Virus record (IMG/VR): IMGVR_UViG_3300032284_000553
Coordinates: 1-20,175 of that record
Reading direction: 5' to 3' (one strand)
Source: a virus
Length of the DNA stretch: 20,175 nt
Part shown: in pieces, positions 2,775 to 17,334 of the stretch
How the letters are laid out: every line of letters begins with the position of its first letter
Position numbering within the stretch: position 1 is the stretch's first letter
The notes under the pieces: generated by a model
Database searches by the model: none
What the model saw: the letters and a program-made list of their open reading frames with translations, nothing else
Told to the model about the DNA's origin: nothing
Translations under genes and position numbers: made by a program

Positions 2775-3353
2775 ATGCAATTCATGAATCTATGGGCAAC
2801 ACCTGTTGCTATCTTTCAAAATAGAGACTATAGAGATATTAACGCAGAGATCCTTAAGTATGAGGAGCTCAGAGGTTGCAATTTCCTAAAGAAGAAGGAC
2901 GTGTGGGATTATAAGGATGAAATCCCTGCGCTTGGTTCTCTCTATGATTGGATGTTAGATTGTACTGCTAAGTATGCCGAGGAATGCTTCGGCATGGAAT
3001 ATCGCCCTGACTACTTTCGACATGGTCATGGATCGATCAATTTCCGTGGTAAGGGCGAGGAAGCTCTTCTACACACGCATCGATTGACTACGGTTGTGAT
3101 GACATATTATGTCGACGTCTATGATAACTGTGGTGACATTAGACTTCTAGATCCTAGAAGCACTCTTGGTTGGATCAGTCGTAACGATGGTCGACCCTAC
3201 AATCAATACACACATAGCCCAAATAATGGTGAGCTGATCATGTTCCCAGGTTGGGTTACACATATGGTTGCGCAAAACCAATCTGATAAAGAGCGTGTTG
3301 CTCTCACGTCTAACGTGTACCTAAAAGATGAGCATAAAGATAAGGTGTACTGA
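2775..3353 (+). CDS. 2-oxoglutarate/Fe(II)-dependent oxygenase (TIGR02466-like)
   Basis: A 192-residue double-stranded beta-helix oxygenase. LLHTHR supplies the proximal histidines (His100 and His102), a GDIRLLDPR strand follows at 120-128, and GELIMFPGWVTHMV supplies the distal His163. Arg174 in KERVAL is the expected 2-oxoglutarate-binding residue. The pattern fits the phage and marine-bacterial 2OG-FeII_Oxy_5/TIGR02466 family, whose substrates are largely unknown. The ATG at 2775 is preferred over 2763 because TGGAG at 2764-2768 is a Shine-Dalgarno sequence six bases upstream of it. The stop overlaps the next ATG (TGATG), so it is coupled to a second, unrelated-looking oxygenase. Confidence 0.8.
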   Translation: MQFMNLWATPVAIFQNRDYRDINAEILKYEELRGCNFLKKKDVWDYKDEIPALGSLYDWMLDCTAKYAEECFGMEYRPDYFRHGHGSINFRGKGEEALLHTHRLTTVVMTYYVDVYDNCGDIRLLDPRSTLGWISRNDGRPYNQYTHSPNNGELIMFPGWVTHMVAQNQSDKERVALTSNVYLKDEHKDKVY

Positions 3354-3910: not shown

Positions 3911-4648
3911 ATGTTTACATTCTTCCATCGTAAAAAGAGGATCACTGTCGATTGCTTCACGGCATTATCGCCAGCGTTCGAGTACACACCAATCGTAAGA
4001 GCGTCTAAGACGATTCCCGATTGGTGGAAGAACTTACCAAAGGTAGGTCCTCTTAAGGATGATAATGGTACATTTCGTATTGACAATAATATGAGACGGT
4101 GCTATGGATTCCTCGAGCTCTACAAGCGTGGAGCTATCATTGAAGCATGGTGTGATAACCACCTTGAAATAAACCCTGACAACTATCGCTTTCATGTCAC
4201 TATTGGTGAAAAGCCAACTTGGCATGAACGCGAGCAGTTTCAGGGTGCTTTCAATAACTATCATCATGTAAAGCTCATGAGCCCGTGGCACCTCCGTGAT
4301 AAGACTGGAATGCCTTTCATGTTCATGGGTGCCGAGTGGAACAATGAGCTTCCATACAAGGTGCTTCCCGGTATCGTTGAGTATCAGAATGTATCTGGTA
4401 CACACATCAACCTGATGGTTCCAAAATACACATCTTCATATGACATGGATATTAAGCTGGGGACACCTCTTGTCCACATTATCCCGCTGCGTGATGATGT
4501 GCATGTAGACTTCAAGTGTCATCTCCTGACACAGGATGAGCTTCAGAAAGTAGCCTTACACGGTGGTATCTCGTATGATGGCATTCGTGGGATGATTGGC
4601 CTACGCAAGCGTAATGAATCTAGAGGCTGTCCGTTCGGCTTCGGATAA
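3911..4648 (+). CDS. Conserved phage protein of unknown function (245 aa)
   Basis: It begins MFTFFHRKK and has a soluble, mixed composition with many Trp, His and Tyr residues (for example IPDWWKNLP at about 39-47, CYGFLELYKRG near 65, and a C-terminal GLRKRNES-type basic tail). It resembles uncharacterised proteins of marine and alphaproteobacterial T4-like phages, but I cannot assign a function. ATG 3911 follows AAGG at 3901-3904 and starts 12 bases after tRNA-Gly. An upstream in-frame start at 3866 would lie inside the tRNA and is rejected. Its TAA is embedded in GATAAATA, a near-match to the late promoter box just ahead of the next gene. Confidence 0.7.
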   Translation: MFTFFHRKKRITVDCFTALSPAFEYTPIVRASKTIPDWWKNLPKVGPLKDDNGTFRIDNNMRRCYGFLELYKRGAIIEAWCDNHLEINPDNYRFHVTIGEKPTWHEREQFQGAFNNYHHVKLMSPWHLRDKTGMPFMFMGAEWNNELPYKVLPGIVEYQNVSGTHINLMVPKYTSSYDMDIKLGTPLVHIIPLRDDVHVDFKCHLLTQDELQKVALHGGISYDGIRGMIGLRKRNESRGCPFGFG

Positions 4649-4651
4649 ATA
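4644..4651 (+). promoter_or_regulatory. Degenerate late promoter box GATAAATA
   Basis: One mismatch from TATAAATA, overlapping the stop codon of the upstream gene and placed so that transcription would begin shortly before the hairpin at 4667. It is a candidate promoter for the outer-membrane barrel gene. Confidence 0.35.
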
Positions 4652-4666
4652 AGCACATGAACGCGT

Positions 4667-4710
4667 CGTTATGAAATCCTGATGATTGATTAATCTTCAA
4701 TTTCATAACG
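4667..4710 (+). repeat. 11-bp perfect inverted repeat in the 5' UTR of the barrel gene
   Basis: CGTTATGAAAT (4667-4677) and ATTTCATAACG (4700-4710) are perfect complements around a 22-base loop. The stem ends at the first G of the GGAG Shine-Dalgarno sequence (4710-4713), six bases before the ATG. It should form in any transcript that enters the gene, so it may protect the mRNA or shape ribosome access. Confidence 0.7.
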
Positions 4711-4719
4711 GAGCTTCAG

Positions 4720-6552
4720 ATGAAGAGATTTTTAGTAGCCCTAATCGGGCTATGCGCATTTACATGTGCTGCCGTAGCACAGAACCTACCAGCCGGTTCA
4801 TTAGGTATCGTTAATAACAATACGCCAAACACATGGCAGACATTTACCTACTCATTCACACCATCAACGACTGGTGCTAACTTCGTAGGTTTTGCATTTC
4901 GTCAGGATCCAGCGTTCTGGACTTTCGACAATGTCAGACTAACAGCAGCTGGTTCATCAACCAACCTGCTAACTAACGGTGCCTTTGATACAGGTGGACA
5001 GTTCAGTGTAACAACCACTAACGGTCCTTCCTCTATGCAGGCGCCAACTAATTGGGGCGTATGGTATCAAAATGGAACTTATCCTGCAGCAGCTGGTACC
5101 TGGACTGATATTGGGGGCACTCATGGTGGTGTATGGTATGACGGAGCTGTTGGCTCGTTCGACGGCATTTATCAAGGCGTGGTTCTCCAGGCGGGGACAA
5201 GTTACACAATTTCTTTTGAAGTTAGTGGCAACAATACTGCTGACAGTAATTCTATTCAGCTTGGCGTTTATGGCGGCGCGTGCGCAACTGTAAGTATTGC
5301 TGCTAATCAGTGTACGATCCCAGCAGCCGCCGGTTTTACCACACTAGCTACACCTGCACAAGGTGCGGCTGCTGGTACTCCAACTCCGCCAGCGCCAACT
5401 ATCGTAAGCACTGCACCTGGTCAATCTAGTGTATCATCATCTAGTTCTCCAGGTACGACCGTTATTACGACTGCTAGCACAAGAGGCACTTCAACGACGG
5501 CAATTGCCCGTTCAGATGCAGCCGCAAGATCCGTTAACAATATCAATGTGACAAGAACTACTGTGACCACAGTTACGACACCGGTTACAACGATTACCAC
5601 ACGTACAACTCCTATCGTCACAACGACAACAACCATACCTAGAACAGTCACAACATGGAGCGATGGCACCACAACGACTGCTGATGGAACACCGGTTGTT
5701 ACTCGTACGACAACTAACCAGATTGTCACATCATCAGCGATTGCTAACGATGTACAGTCTACAACCGGAACACAGTCACAGTCTGTTAGCTCCAATGGTG
5801 CTAAGAGTGCTGTGTCTTATCGTAACAACAATCCATTCATCGTTGACGCACTAAGTCAGAAGGATGGAGCATGGATTAGCCCGACCGCAAGCTACTACAA
5901 GTCTGTAGGCAGCATGTCATCTGGCGGTGTGTCTGTTGGTTACCAGTGGACGGTTGACAACAACACATTTGGTACAGCGTTTGCCTACAACAATTCAAAA
6001 AGCGGTGGGCTTGTTGGTTCTGATGTACAGGTTGCAACCTACGATGGTGTTGCATACATCCTAAGCAAGCAGGAAGACGTGTGGGTTAAGGGAACTATCG
6101 GTTACGGCTATGGTGACTATACGGCCAACACATCGATCCCAACGTTTGCCCTATATAATATGGGTAAGCTAAAGCAGAAAAACTACGTAGCTGATCTAAC
6201 ACTTTACAGTGCAGATGACTACGTTGGTTTCCGTCCATTGATTGGTGCTACGATCAATAAGAGCCAGATTGAGGCTTCTGCTGTTGGTAGCCCACTGCTA
6301 GACACTACGGGTGACATCATGTCTACAACTACGGTAAATCCATACGTAGGTGCTAGATATGACTTTACAGACAGTGTTGGTATCGAGATGAGAGCCACAC
6401 AGACTAAGGACTTCAAGACAGTCGGTGGAATCCGCGCTGTTGCCAAGACTGAGCTGTTTGATGGTGTGTTCCTGAATGCTACGGTAGGACTAGATAAGGG
6501 AACAGGCTACCAGGGCGCATCCGGTACCCTTGGTATCAAGGTCGCCTTTTAA
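4720..6552 (+). CDS. Secreted Thr-rich protein with C-terminal outer-membrane beta-barrel (autotransporter-like)
   Basis: A 610-residue protein with four parts. Residues 1-20 are a Sec signal peptide ending AVA-Q. Residues about 22-195 form a Gly/Thr/Trp-rich beta domain that resembles a carbohydrate-binding jelly roll (two GGxWYDG/WTFDNV-like strands). Residues about 240-340 are a Thr-rich, low-complexity stalk with many TT, TTV and TTP units. Residues about 368-610 have alternating amphipathic strands and end in a terminal Phe (GIKVAF), the signature for BAM-dependent insertion in the outer membrane. The whole fits a type V-like surface protein displayed on the infected host. It could instead be a virion fibre, but a signal peptide and a terminal aromatic residue argue for the host envelope. 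The GGAG Shine-Dalgarno sequence lies six bases before the ATG. Confidence 0.75.
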   Translation: MKRFLVALIGLCAFTCAAVAQNLPAGSLGIVNNNTPNTWQTFTYSFTPSTTGANFVGFAFRQDPAFWTFDNVRLTAAGSSTNLLTNGAFDTGGQFSVTTTNGPSSMQAPTNWGVWYQNGTYPAAAGTWTDIGGTHGGVWYDGAVGSFDGIYQGVVLQAGTSYTISFEVSGNNTADSNSIQLGVYGGACATVSIAANQCTIPAAAGFTTLATPAQGAAAGTPTPPAPTIVSTAPGQSSVSSSSSPGTTVITTASTRGTSTTAIARSDAAARSVNNINVTRTTVTTVTTPVTTITTRTTPIVTTTTTIPRTVTTWSDGTTTTADGTPVVTRTTTNQIVTSSAIANDVQSTTGTQSQSVSSNGAKSAVSYRNNNPFIVDALSQKDGAWISPTASYYKSVGSMSSGGVSVGYQWTVDNNTFGTAFAYNNSKSGGLVGSDVQVATYDGVAYILSKQEDVWVKGTIGYGYGDYTANTSIPTFALYNMGKLKQKNYVADLTLYSADDYVGFRPLIGATINKSQIEASAVGSPLLDTTGDIMSTTTVNPYVGARYDFTDSVGIEMRATQTKDFKTVGGIRAVAKTELFDGVFLNATVGLDKGTGYQGASGTLGIKVAF

Positions 6553-6554
6553 GG

Positions 6555-6583
6555 TGTACAATGTCTCTCCATCGTGGTATAAT
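6555..6583 (+). promoter_or_regulatory. Sigma70-like promoter TGTACA-N17-TATAAT
   Basis: A -35 element TGTACA (6555-6560), a 17-base spacer and a consensus TATAAT (6578-6583). The start point would be near 6590, just upstream of the gene at 6605. The same hexamers and spacing recur in front of uvsX. The -10 box lies in the loop of the inverted repeat at 6561-6606. Confidence 0.75.
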
Positions 6584-6606
6584 ACTTAAATGATGGAGAG
6601 AGACAT
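6561..6606 (+). promoter_or_regulatory. Inverted repeat that masks the RBS and surrounds a promoter
   Basis: TCTCTCCATC (6564-6573) pairs perfectly with GATGGAGAGA (6592-6601); two more pairs can be added inside. In an alternative register a 2-base bulge lets ATGTC (6561-6565) pair with GACAT (6602-6606), covering part of the start codon. The right arm contains the GGAGAG Shine-Dalgarno sequence. The TATAAT box is in the loop, so transcripts starting near 6590 lack the left arm. Confidence 0.7.
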
Positions 6607-8494: not shown

Positions 8495-9046
8495 ATGCAA
8501 AAGACTATCATTACGGCGCTTGTTCTTCTTGCGTCGACAGCAGTGGCTTCCGCTACTGATCTGCCAAGCAAGACGAAGGCACCGTCTCTACCCACACTTG
8601 CACAGTCAGATGACTTCTATGCAGGCGTGAATGCAGGCGGTAACTTCAACGATGCACGCGTCTATTCTGGTGGTGCTGTTGCTGGCTGGAACGTCCTTCC
8701 GTTCCTCGCAGTAGAAGGTACATACGACTTCTCTCGTCCTGAGACGAAGATCCGTGGCGACTACAACTACCAGAATACGGTTGCTGTAAACGCTGTACCG
8801 CAGTACAAGGTTCCTGCTCTTCCTGTCACCGTCTATGCACTAGGCGGCGCGGGTTATCGCTGGAACACTGCAGCTACCGTAGCGGATATTTCCGTTTATA
8901 ACTTCGGTGCTGGTGCCAAGTATGAGTTCGCTAAGGGCTTTGAAATCGACGGTCGTTATCGTCGTATCGATGCCATTGAGAGCAAGTACCGTACTTCGAC
9001 TTCGGCCGAAGATCGTGCTACAATCGGTCTGAACGCTAAGTTCTAA
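8495..9046 (+). CDS. Small outer-membrane beta-barrel protein, rhizobial Omp-like
   Basis: A 183-residue protein with a signal peptide (about 1-20, ending ASA-T), followed by DLPSKTKAP, a post-cleavage segment typical of rhizobial Omp25/31-type porin-like proteins. The rest shows alternating strands (DFYAGVNAGGNF, VYALGGAGYRW, NFGAGAKYEF) and ends in AKF with the terminal Phe needed for outer-membrane assembly, consistent with an eight-stranded barrel. It was probably acquired from a host. Possible roles are altering the host surface, for example blocking superinfection; this is inference. Shine-Dalgarno AAGGAG at 8482-8487. The next gene starts in its stop codon (TAATG). Confidence 0.8.
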   Translation: MQKTIITALVLLASTAVASATDLPSKTKAPSLPTLAQSDDFYAGVNAGGNFNDARVYSGGAVAGWNVLPFLAVEGTYDFSRPETKIRGDYNYQNTVAVNAVPQYKVPALPVTVYALGGAGYRWNTAATVADISVYNFGAGAKYEFAKGFEIDGRYRRIDAIESKYRTSTSAEDRATIGLNAKF

Positions 9047-13942: not shown

Positions 13943-14122
13943 ATGACACAACTATTATCAACTTTCAGCAATTGGCTGAAGGATACATCGTACTATTACA
14001 ATACAATTTACGAACTATCTAGATTGACAGATAGAGAGCTACAGGATATTGGGCTTACACGTAATGAGATCGTTCATGTTGCGAGCGAGCAATATGTAAG
14101 GCGCGTGATAAATAATTCGTGA
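13943..14122 (+). CDS. DUF1127 (YjiS-like) small protein (59 aa)
   Basis: A 59-residue protein with the DUF1127 signature near the centre: ELSRLTDRELQDIGLTRNEI, matching the family pattern L-x-x-L-x-D-x-x-L-x-DIGL-x-R. DUF1127 proteins are abundant in rhizobia and other alphaproteobacteria; some have been linked to small-RNA and phosphate or stress regulation, but their biochemistry is unclear. ATG 13943 is preceded by AAGGA (13930-13934) at suitable spacing. It directly follows the hsp20 terminator and precedes the endolysin. It was probably acquired from a host genome. Confidence 0.8.
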   Translation: MTQLLSTFSNWLKDTSYYYNTIYELSRLTDRELQDIGLTRNEIVHVASEQYVRRVINNS

Positions 14123-14146: not shown

Positions 14147-14761
14147 ATGTCTATTACTAAAGAACAACTCTCATCATTCTTCGAAGATACAGATAATGGT
14201 GTGATTGAGGCTTTTATCGATCCTCTCAATAAGACATTTGAGAAGTTTGAAATCAATAATCCAAATCGTATTGCTATGTTCCTCGCTCAGGTTGGTCATG
14301 AGTCTGGCGGTCTTACTAAGACTCAAGAGAATCTGAACTATAAGCCAGAGCGTCTAGCACAGATCTTTCCGAAGTATTTCCGTAATGTTGATCCGCATGA
14401 CTATGCACACAATCCTGAAAAGATTGCTAATCGTGTATATGCTGATCGCATGGGTAATGGTGACGAAGAGTCTGGTGATGGTTACAAGTTCCGTGGTCGT
14501 GGGCTGATTCAGCTTACCGGCCGTGACAACTATGAATCATTTGCTGAGGATATGGGTATGGATCTAGACGCAGCAGTTGCTTATCTAGGTACACCTGAAG
14601 GTGCAGCTATGTCTGCAGGTTGGTTCTGGGATCAGCACGATCTTAACGAGCTGGCTGATGCCGGTGACGTCACACGATGCACTAAGAAGATCAATGGTGG
14701 TACCATCGGTCTTGAAGAGCGCACTGAGCTCTTCGAAGAGGCAAAGACAATTTTTGCCTGA
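14147..14761 (+). CDS. Endolysin, glycoside hydrolase family 19 (chitinase-like)
   Basis: A 204-residue protein with the GH19 lysozyme-like fold: QVGHESGG with catalytic Glu52, ENLNY, then YKFRGRGLIQLTGRDNY and CTKKINGGTIGLEER at the C-terminus. Phage GH19 proteins act as endolysins that cut the glycan of peptidoglycan. There is no signal peptide, so a holin is needed for export. ATG 14147 is chosen because GGAG (14138-14141) is five bases upstream; the GTG at 14141 overlaps that site. It works with the spanins at 12351-12985. Its stop is followed directly by the left arm of the polymerase inverted repeat. Confidence 0.88.
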   Translation: MSITKEQLSSFFEDTDNGVIEAFIDPLNKTFEKFEINNPNRIAMFLAQVGHESGGLTKTQENLNYKPERLAQIFPKYFRNVDPHDYAHNPEKIANRVYADRMGNGDEESGDGYKFRGRGLIQLTGRDNYESFAEDMGMDLDAAVAYLGTPEGAAMSAGWFWDQHDLNELADAGDVTRCTKKINGGTIGLEERTELFEEAKTIFA

Positions 14762-14764
14762 TTC

Positions 14765-14840
14765 TAGAACCGAGTCATTTACTTTTACGTGAAATTATTG
14801 TATAATGTATCTACAATGGAGGTCAGATGACTCGGTTCTA
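14765..14840 (+). promoter_or_regulatory. 14-bp inverted repeat spanning the polymerase promoter and start codon
   Basis: TAGAACCGAGTCAT (14765-14778) is the perfect reverse complement of ATGACTCGGTTCTA (14827-14840), which is the start codon and first four codons of the polymerase gene. The 48-base loop holds the TATAAT box and the Shine-Dalgarno sequence. Read-through RNA from the endolysin gene would pair the start codon; RNA from the internal promoter (start near 14813) cannot. Confidence 0.8.
14778..14806 (+). promoter_or_regulatory. Sigma70-like promoter TTTACT-N17-TATAAT for the polymerase gene
   Basis: TTTACT (14778-14783) and TATAAT (14801-14806) with a 17-base spacer; the start point would be about 14813, 14 bases before the ATG, with GGAGG at 14818-14822. 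Confidence 0.7.
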
Positions 14841-17334
14841 CACACACGTCTATATGCGCGGCAACAAGATCTATGTCCGTGGCTATCAGAATGGCAAGCC
14901 CTTCAAGGAAGAGGAGCACTACCAGCCATATCTGTTCGAGTACGTTCCTAATCAGAATTCTAAGTACAAGTCACTCGATGGTCGTCCTGTCCGTCGACGT
15001 GACTTTCGTAGTATCAAGGAAGCACGCGACTATGTGAAGTCGATGGAGGGTGTGTCCAACAAGCAGATGTTTGGCTTGACACACTATCAGTACACGTACC
15101 TCAATGATGAGTTCTCAGGTGAGGTTGAGTACGATCCATCCGTCATCTCTGTAGTCAGCATCGATATTGAGACGCCGACCGATCAAGGCTTTCCTGATCC
15201 TGAAGCTGCTGATGTTCCTGTCAGCAATATCACGATCAGCAAGAACGGCAAGATCGTTGTGTTCGGTTGTGAGTACTACAAGGTCAAGGAACCTAACGTC
15301 TACTACTTCCTCTGTAAGGACGAGGAAGAGATGCTGCATAAGTTCCTGATGGTGTGGAATGATGAAGACTGGGCACCCGATGTTCTGACTGGTTGGAACA
15401 TTGATGGGTTCGACATACCGTATCTGTTCAATCGTATCACTAAGGTCCTCGGTGAGAATGAGGCACGCAAGCTGTCACCATGGCGTATGGTCGAAGCTCG
15501 CGAGGTAAAGATGAAGACTGGCGAGACAAAGATCATCTACGATCTTGTCGGCATTGCTGTGCTTGACTACCTCGAGCTGTATAAGAAGTTCTCGTTCACC
15601 AATCAGGAGAGCTACAAGCTTGATCATATCGCCAACATCGTCCTTGGTGAGAACAAGCTTGACTACTCTGAGTTCAACTCACTGTATGAGTTCTACAAGA
15701 AGGACTATGAGCGATTTGTCGACTACAACATCCACGATACTGTTCTAGTTGAGCGTCTTGAGGATAAGCTTGGCATGATCAAGCAGGTGTTCGCCCTTGC
15801 CTATGATGCTAAGGTGAACTTCAATGACGTATTGACGACCACACGTCCGTGGGATGTTATCATCCACAACTACCTGATGAATCAGAATATCGTTGTGCCA
15901 TTCTTCACTCCATCAAAGGAGGACTTCACTCTTGTCGGTGGTTACGTCAAGGAAGTACAGACTGGTATGCATAAGTGGGTTGTGTCATTCGACTTGAACT
16001 CACTCTATCCTCATCTCATCATGCAGTACAACATCTCTCCTGAGACGTTTGTACGCCGTCAGCGTAATGTGCCATCGATCGATAACATCATCAAGGGGAT
16101 GTATCGTGCACCAGATGGTGACGAGGCTGTAGCGGCTAATGGTTGTACGTACACCAAGGAGAAGCAGGGATTCCTTGCAGCTCTGATGGAGAAGATGTAT
16201 GATGATCGTGTGATCTACAAGAACATGATGCTTGATGCGAAGAAGCGTTATGAGCAGACGAAGAGCAAGGAGGATGAGAAGCTAATCTCACGCTATCATA
16301 ACCTCCAGCTCGCCAAGAAGATCCAATTGAACTCAGCTTACGGTGCTCTCGGCAATCGTTACTTCCGTTGGTTCTCATTCGATAACGCCGAGGCCATCAC
16401 GACATCCGGCCAGCTCTCTATTCGTTGGATCGAGAGCCGTATGAACGAGTACATGAACAAGATCTGTAAGACGAAGGGTGTTGACTATGTCATCGCATCT
16501 GATACAGACTCTATCTACGTCACGTTCAAGAACCTGATTCCTGTAGGTGCTGATGAGCTTGAGTCTGTTAAGCTTATCGATGAGTTCTGTGAGACTAAGA
16601 TCCAATCATACATCAACAGCTGCTACGATGAGTTGGCTGGTATGATGAACGCCTATCAGCAGAAGATGCAGATGAAGCGTGAGACGATCGCCAACAAGGC
16701 GATCTGGAAAGAAAAGAAGATGTACATCCTCAACGCTTGGAACATCGAGGGTGTGCAGTTCGACAAGCCTAAGCTCAAGATGTCCGGTATCGAAGCTGTT
16801 CGTTCATCCACTCCTAAGAAGTGCCGTGATGCTATTAAGACTGCTCTTGAAGTCTTGATGAATCAGACTGAGCCTGAGTTCCAGAAGTTTATCGCTGACT
16901 TCAAACTCAAGTTCATGGAGATGCCGTTCGAGGAGGTTGCCTTCCCGCGTGGTGTTCGCCTGATGGGATATAAGACATCGCCTACCGGTGGTTCGTACAA
17001 GTTTGAGTATAAGCTTGGTGATAAGTCGCTACCTATCCAGGTTCGTGGTGCACTAGTCTACAATGACATGATCAAGCGTATGGGGCTAGAGAAGAAGTAT
17101 GACATGATCAAGGAGGGTGACAAGATCAAGTTTGCGTATCTGACATCACCTAATCCACTACGATCAAATGTCGTAGCAGCTCCGGATGTGTTGCCACCTG
17201 AGTTTAAGCTGGACATGTATATCGACCGTGATATGCAGTTCGAGAAGACATTCCTCGATCCACTCAAGTCCATTACCGAAGTTATCGGATGGCAGATCGA
17301 GAAGAAGGCAACACTACAATCTTTCTTCTACTGA
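14827..17334 (+). CDS. 43: Family B DNA polymerase (T4 gp43-like)
   Basis: An 835-residue replicative polymerase, slightly shorter than T4 gp43 (898). The 3'-5' exonuclease motifs are intact: Exo I SIDIET with Asp113/Glu115, Exo II NIDGFD with Asn191/Asp196, Exo III YNIHD with Tyr300/Asp304. The polymerase motifs are intact too: A as DLNSLYP with Asp389, B as KIQLNSAYG with Lys498/Tyr505, C as SDTDS with Asp559/Asp561. It copies the phage genome with proofreading. GGAGG precedes the ATG by only four bases. Its first 14 bases form the right arm of the inverted repeat at 14765-14840. T4 gp43 represses its own mRNA by binding a leader hairpin; the element here is different in layout. Confidence 0.97.
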   Translation: MTRFYTHVYMRGNKIYVRGYQNGKPFKEEEHYQPYLFEYVPNQNSKYKSLDGRPVRRRDFRSIKEARDYVKSMEGVSNKQMFGLTHYQYTYLNDEFSGEVEYDPSVISVVSIDIETPTDQGFPDPEAADVPVSNITISKNGKIVVFGCEYYKVKEPNVYYFLCKDEEEMLHKFLMVWNDEDWAPDVLTGWNIDGFDIPYLFNRITKVLGENEARKLSPWRMVEAREVKMKTGETKIIYDLVGIAVLDYLELYKKFSFTNQESYKLDHIANIVLGENKLDYSEFNSLYEFYKKDYERFVDYNIHDTVLVERLEDKLGMIKQVFALAYDAKVNFNDVLTTTRPWDVIIHNYLMNQNIVVPFFTPSKEDFTLVGGYVKEVQTGMHKWVVSFDLNSLYPHLIMQYNISPETFVRRQRNVPSIDNIIKGMYRAPDGDEAVAANGCTYTKEKQGFLAALMEKMYDDRVIYKNMMLDAKKRYEQTKSKEDEKLISRYHNLQLAKKIQLNSAYGALGNRYFRWFSFDNAEAITTSGQLSIRWIESRMNEYMNKICKTKGVDYVIASDTDSIYVTFKNLIPVGADELESVKLIDEFCETKIQSYINSCYDELAGMMNAYQQKMQMKRETIANKAIWKEKKMYILNAWNIEGVQFDKPKLKMSGIEAVRSSTPKKCRDAIKTALEVLMNQTEPEFQKFIADFKLKFMEMPFEEVAFPRGVRLMGYKTSPTGGSYKFEYKLGDKSLPIQVRGALVYNDMIKRMGLEKKYDMIKEGDKIKFAYLTSPNPLRSNVVAAPDVLPPEFKLDMYIDRDMQFEKTFLDPLKSITEVIGWQIEKKATLQSFFY

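Follow-up and report, generated by a model that had tools for sequence, protein, structure and literature searches.

A promoter-nested hairpin predicted to silence late read-through RNA of a T4-type DNA polymerase gene

In a viral record of 20,175 bases (the window, i.e. the whole stretch of DNA that we analysed), the start of a T4-type DNA polymerase gene (gene 43) is complementary to a sequence just behind the upstream endolysin gene, and the -10 box of the gene 43 promoter lies between the two arms. This promoter-nested hairpin probably shields gene 43 from late read-through, in this phage by silencing translation. The sequence-only reading of this DNA had proposed that translation of gene 43 depends on the promoter from which the RNA originates, and most of the sequence-level predictions that we tested were favourable, so that we grade the proposal as supported. 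We infer that both transcripts exist, where the promoter-born one starts and how strongly translation is affected.

The endolysin–gene 43 junction

The window holds a tRNA cluster and, from 14147, genes for an endolysin, gene 43, a UvsX-like recombinase and a DnaB-like helicase. The endolysin gene (14147-14761, + strand) is a GH19 chitinase-like, late lysis gene (PHROG 181 endolysin, E 2.6e-82), and gene 43 (14827-17334, + strand) encodes a family B polymerase of 835 aa (PHROG 262, E 1.4e-303; Pfam DNA_pol_B). A gap of 65 bases separates the endolysin stop (14759-14761) from the polymerase start at 14827. An outer-membrane beta-barrel protein gene (Pfam OMP_b-brl; 8495-9046) and DNA matches of the window to Sinorhizobium phages suggest that the host may be alphaproteobacterial.

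The two genes had been thought to differ in their promoters, and the motifs agree: the T4-type late promoter motif GATAAATA ([GTA]ATAAATA; 14107-14114, + strand) lies upstream of the endolysin, and gene 43 has a different, sigma70-like promoter, with a -10 TATAAT at 14801-14806, a -35-like TTTACT at 14778-14783 (10/12 consensus, spacer 17; both + strand) and a predicted transcript start at around 14812-14813. The 167,756-base record of a close relative, L004, has two promoter classes: 25 genes have ATAAATA, the T4 late type, in the 80 nt before them (4.0 expected), and TGTACA-N-TATAAT, a class related to the gene 43 promoter, is found 23 times in the forward direction and twice in the reversed control. 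By its motif, and by analogy with T4, the gene 43 promoter is probably early or middle. Since the late motif precedes the endolysin and the TATAAT type precedes gene 43, a late-type gene would here stand before an early or middle promoter, which is the reverse of the T4 cases. In T4 and RB49 themselves, it is regA and not an endolysin gene that precedes gene 43.

The junction contains a 14-bp perfect inverted repeat, exactly where it had been reported, with arms at 14765-14778 (TAGAACCGAGTCAT) and 14827-14840 (ATGACTCGGTTCTA) that are 100% complementary and 48 nt apart. When the window was dinucleotide-shuffled 200 times, no 14-bp inverted repeat with a gap of at most 60 arose, and those of 13 bp averaged 0.025 per shuffle. 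The left arm starts three bases past the endolysin stop, and the right arm is the beginning of the polymerase gene (ATG, codons 2-4 and two bases of codon 5), also as proposed. An Rfam search of the window returned tRNAs only.

In the predicted fold of the read-through RNA the helix is longer than the repeat: 14765-14780 pairs with 14825-14840, with one bulged base, and 14781-14785 then pairs with 14819-14823. The left arm (14765-14785, + strand) thus comprises the 14-bp core, two more pairs to 14780 and a segment complementary to the Shine-Dalgarno sequence GGAGGT (14818-14823, + strand), and the right arm (14825-14840, + strand) covers the start codon and reaches into codon 5. The hairpin has a minimum free energy of -37.1 (z -3.65), equalled by none of 200 shuffles. 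The sequence-only reading had placed both the promoter and the Shine-Dalgarno sequence in the loop. The -10 box does lie between the arms, but the -35-like box overlaps the left arm, and the Shine-Dalgarno sequence, because of its pairing with 14781-14785, belongs to the stem. The predicted promoter-born RNA (from 14813) shows no stable fold at the ribosome site.

Opening costs computed for both RNA forms lead to the same contrast. The start codon costs 9.0 kcal/mol to open in the read-through RNA, however far upstream that RNA begins, and 1.3-1.4 kcal/mol in the promoter-born RNA; for the whole ribosome site the costs are 13.4 and 5.7 kcal/mol. With the same method, the ribosome site of T4 gene e, our positive control, gave 15-16 against 1.4-3.6 kcal/mol. 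The gap at gene 43 is therefore smaller than that of e for the whole ribosome site and larger for the start codon itself. This fits the expectation of a start codon hidden in read-through RNA and open in promoter-born RNA, to a degree roughly comparable to T4 e. Gene 43 had the highest opening cost among 117 genes of L004. The largest gain in openness upon leader shortening among these genes belonged to a gp44-like clamp loader gene (L004 103147; L166 3110-3150; 311 aa, named from its N-terminal sequence), whose ribosome site pairs with CAAACTC just upstream.

Conservation and recurrence of the design

A scan of viral contigs for the exact arms matched only the contig of L004. Between the window and L004, 226 of 835 third codon positions differ in the polymerase (27%) and 72 of 207 in the endolysin (ca. 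35%); in the junction, only 2 of 65 intergenic bases have changed, neither of them in an arm, and the first 15 codons of gene 43 show no change (0/45). This low divergence is not confined to the arms but spans the interval from end to end; it speaks for constraint on the junction without singling out the arms, and it is possible that it partly reflects a recent recombination patch. As L004 is the sole close relative and its arms are identical, the comparison yields no compensatory change between the arms of the window hairpin. The expectation that relatives would keep the complementarity was thus borne out in L004 but not in the next relatives, L001-L003, which lack the hairpin. These have the same gene pair with a terminator hairpin that holds the -10 box in its left arm, and for this reason the conserved feature is more likely the insulation of the junction than the particular hairpin of the window.

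We compared 95 distinct gene 43 leaders, 48 with an endolysin gene upstream and 47 with other upstream genes. Promoter-nesting hairpins occur in 27 of the 48 and in three of the 47, these three being all weak. Counting any strong hairpin, the figures are 28/48 and 7/47 (Fisher p 1.5e-5, with leaders of shared ancestry counted as independent); the 20 endolysin–gene 43 junctions without one indicate that insulation is not essential everywhere. Among the 27, the stem is followed by a U-run in 14 (class T), nine have no U-run (class N) and four extend over the ribosome site: the window, L084 (from the contig of L004), L294 and, weakly, L049. A -10 box within a terminator hairpin before gene 43 was seen in L001-L003, L008 and others. 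The class N hairpins (leaders L011, L021, L028, L035, L047, L085, L090, L282 and L296) are strong, covarying and promoter-nesting, and their right arm ends about 19-22 nt before the start codon; lacking a U-run and falling short of the start, they suggest neither termination nor hiding of the ribosome site in any obvious way. In a set of 12 aligned stems from relatives, picked because they form hairpins, 94% of the cells pair, seven pairs have changed on both sides and the covariation score was reached by no shuffle. Such compensatory changes indicate that in these relatives pairing is kept rather than sequence. We did not count 9-bp pairings over the start in L003 and L059, because a terminator is already present in L003 and TGTACA is palindromic in its own right.

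The window contains a second copy of the design, again behind a late-type gene. A gene of 610 aa with no assigned function (4720-6552, + strand), preceded by the late motif GATAAATA at 4644-4651 (+ strand), lies directly upstream of a hairpin at 6555-6606. Its left arm (6561-6575, + strand) is within the spacer of the promoter TGTACA(6555)-17-TATAAT(6578-6583), and its right arm (6590-6606, + strand) covers the Shine-Dalgarno sequence of a 76-aa gene and reaches its start codon at 6605, the promoter spacer TCTCTCCATC pairing with GATGGAGAGA. Opening costs are 15.1 in the read-through and 2.6 in the promoter-born RNA. The arms are kept in L004 and in the contig of L002, whose gene differs from that of the window at 40 of 73 third positions; the phages sharing this copy include one whose polymerase is about 82% identical. 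Searches with the 76-aa protein retrieved L004 and one weak match only. The region from the late motif at 4644 to the 610-aa start at 4720 also holds an 11-bp perfect inverted repeat (4667-4710; CGTTATGAAAT/ATTTCATAACG), which would sit in the leader of the late RNA of that gene; its left-arm sequence recurs in L004 at 115908.

In G002 (polymerase ca. 61% identical), a ribosome-site hairpin likewise surrounds a promoter before a 276-aa gene; its sequence is different, and it stands behind a gene with the late motif AATAAATA. Across 20 promoters of L004, complementarity spanning the transcript start exceeded that of permuted pairs (p 0.0004). This was the second of two measures tried, based on contiguous helices; it replaced RNA duplex energies between promoter flanks (permutation p 0.053), which we dropped as too noisy because they allowed long internal loops. 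Pooling five records gave p 0.00035, a signal carried by L004, and G002, G003 and G005 were not significant on their own. Two L004 promoters (119103 and 166300) follow late motifs without such a hairpin. At 161671 in L004 (L169 1678-1712), the right arm of a nested hairpin includes the start codon; the predicted leader is of about 6-9 nt, and in the short RNA the start opens almost free of cost.

Insulation of gene 43 and alternative explanations

In the reading that we favour, late RNA running on from the endolysin would carry both arms, bury the gene 43 Shine-Dalgarno sequence and start codon in a helix some 21 pairs long, and hence yield no polymerase. RNA made from the nested promoter would lack the left arm, leave the ribosome site open and be translated. 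The origin of the RNA alone would decide, with no need for a sensor protein. In many relatives, read-through RNA would instead be stopped within the very element from which the own RNA of gene 43 starts, whereas the lineage of the window would make it untranslatable rather than terminate it. Extending this to the group, we see about an even chance that its T4-type phages wall off early or middle genes from late read-through through hairpins that hold the gene's own promoter, and that one and the same junction can switch between terminating and ribosome-hiding forms, so that nothing but the origin of the transcript would stop polymerase production late.

The main rival is translational coupling, in which gene 43 would be translated from read-through RNA when ribosomes finishing the endolysin unfold the left arm. 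With the arm three bases past the stop, within reach of a terminating ribosome, such ribosomes could partly open it, and in L004 the ribosome site of the gp44-like gene is covered by a hairpin of this coupling type, whose loop holds the preceding stop codon. A terminating ribosome, however, covers part of the arm only, and the Shine-Dalgarno side would stay paired; the promoter sits between the arms; and a terminator, as relatives have at the same site, cannot couple. We thus regard coupling as unlikely. Still less probable is an inverted duplication or chance repeat with no regulatory effect. The hairpin is kept in one close relative only, and local recombination could explain the low divergence, but the absence of comparable repeats from 200 shuffles, the second copy in the window and the same-junction hairpins in other lineages argue against it. 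The right arm also includes, as polymerase codon 3, the only CGG among the 101 arginine codons of five window genes (CGG makes up 1.8% of arginine codons in L004); this speaks in the same direction, although a single codon is only suggestive. The least probable of these alternatives, and a very improbable one, is an operator at the DNA or RNA level, with the repeat bound by a protein such as gp43. In its autogenous control, T4 gp43 indeed binds an operator hairpin that precedes the start of its gene (PMC3014915). The stems of relatives, however, vary in sequence while keeping their pairing, unlike a fixed binding site, and the predicted nested-promoter RNA, without the left arm, could not carry the operator.

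Comparison with known systems

Insulation by a promoter-nested hairpin would add a cis-acting, protein-free stop to polymerase synthesis late in infection. The junction family also comes in natural variants, with a terminator, a hairpin lacking a U-run, a ribosome-site hairpin or none of these, which can serve to study how neighbouring genes are insulated in compact phage genomes.

PeSLs, known from T4-like phages, are described as composite motifs of an early promoter and a terminator (Arbiol 2010 and Comeau 2014, as cited in PMC4503421). As far as this description goes, the hairpin of the window resembles them in that stem-loop and early promoter form a single element. It differs in that its right arm is followed by CACACACG, with no U-run of the kind seen in class T relatives, and in that the ribosome site and start codon of gene 43 itself make up its 3' arm. 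In phage RB49, a promoter inside a terminator stem at 3192 fits a PeSL. Phrase searches on a promoter inside a terminator gave nothing relevant in the literature searched, to which the original PeSL papers do not belong. Unlike the T4 gp43 operator, the left arm would be absent from the promoter-born gene 43 mRNA, which would therefore have no operator hairpin.

The transposase genes of IS10 and IS50 are protected from outside transcription by a fold-back, in which read-through RNA would fold over the start and RNA from the own promoter would not. There, a mobile element guards against landing by chance behind a promoter, whereas the window presents a fixed phage gene junction.

Among the closest parallels are T4 e, soc, 49, I-TevI and segB and Aeh1 mobE, whose ribosome-site hairpins have an internal late promoter: the long upstream RNA hides the ribosome site, and the RNA from this promoter, which lies between the arms or next to them, is without the 5' arm and is translated (PMC2988022, PMC3014915). 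The hairpin of e lowers lysozyme synthesis about 100-fold (reviewed in PMC3014915). Gene 43 shares this layout, with the 5' arm before the predicted transcript start and the 3' arm over the Shine-Dalgarno sequence and start codon, and likewise its ribosome site is predicted to be hidden in read-through RNA and open in nested-promoter RNA. In T4, however, the genes so protected are late ones carried on early or middle transcripts (PMC2988022), and the internal promoter is late, whereas in the window a sigma70-like promoter and its replication gene stand behind a late gene, and the design is found at least twice. The principle is thus already known, and what is new is the reversed temporal order, the target gene and the repeated use in one genome: if our reading holds, an early or middle replication gene is silent on late RNA, the mirror image of T4 late genes silent on early RNA.
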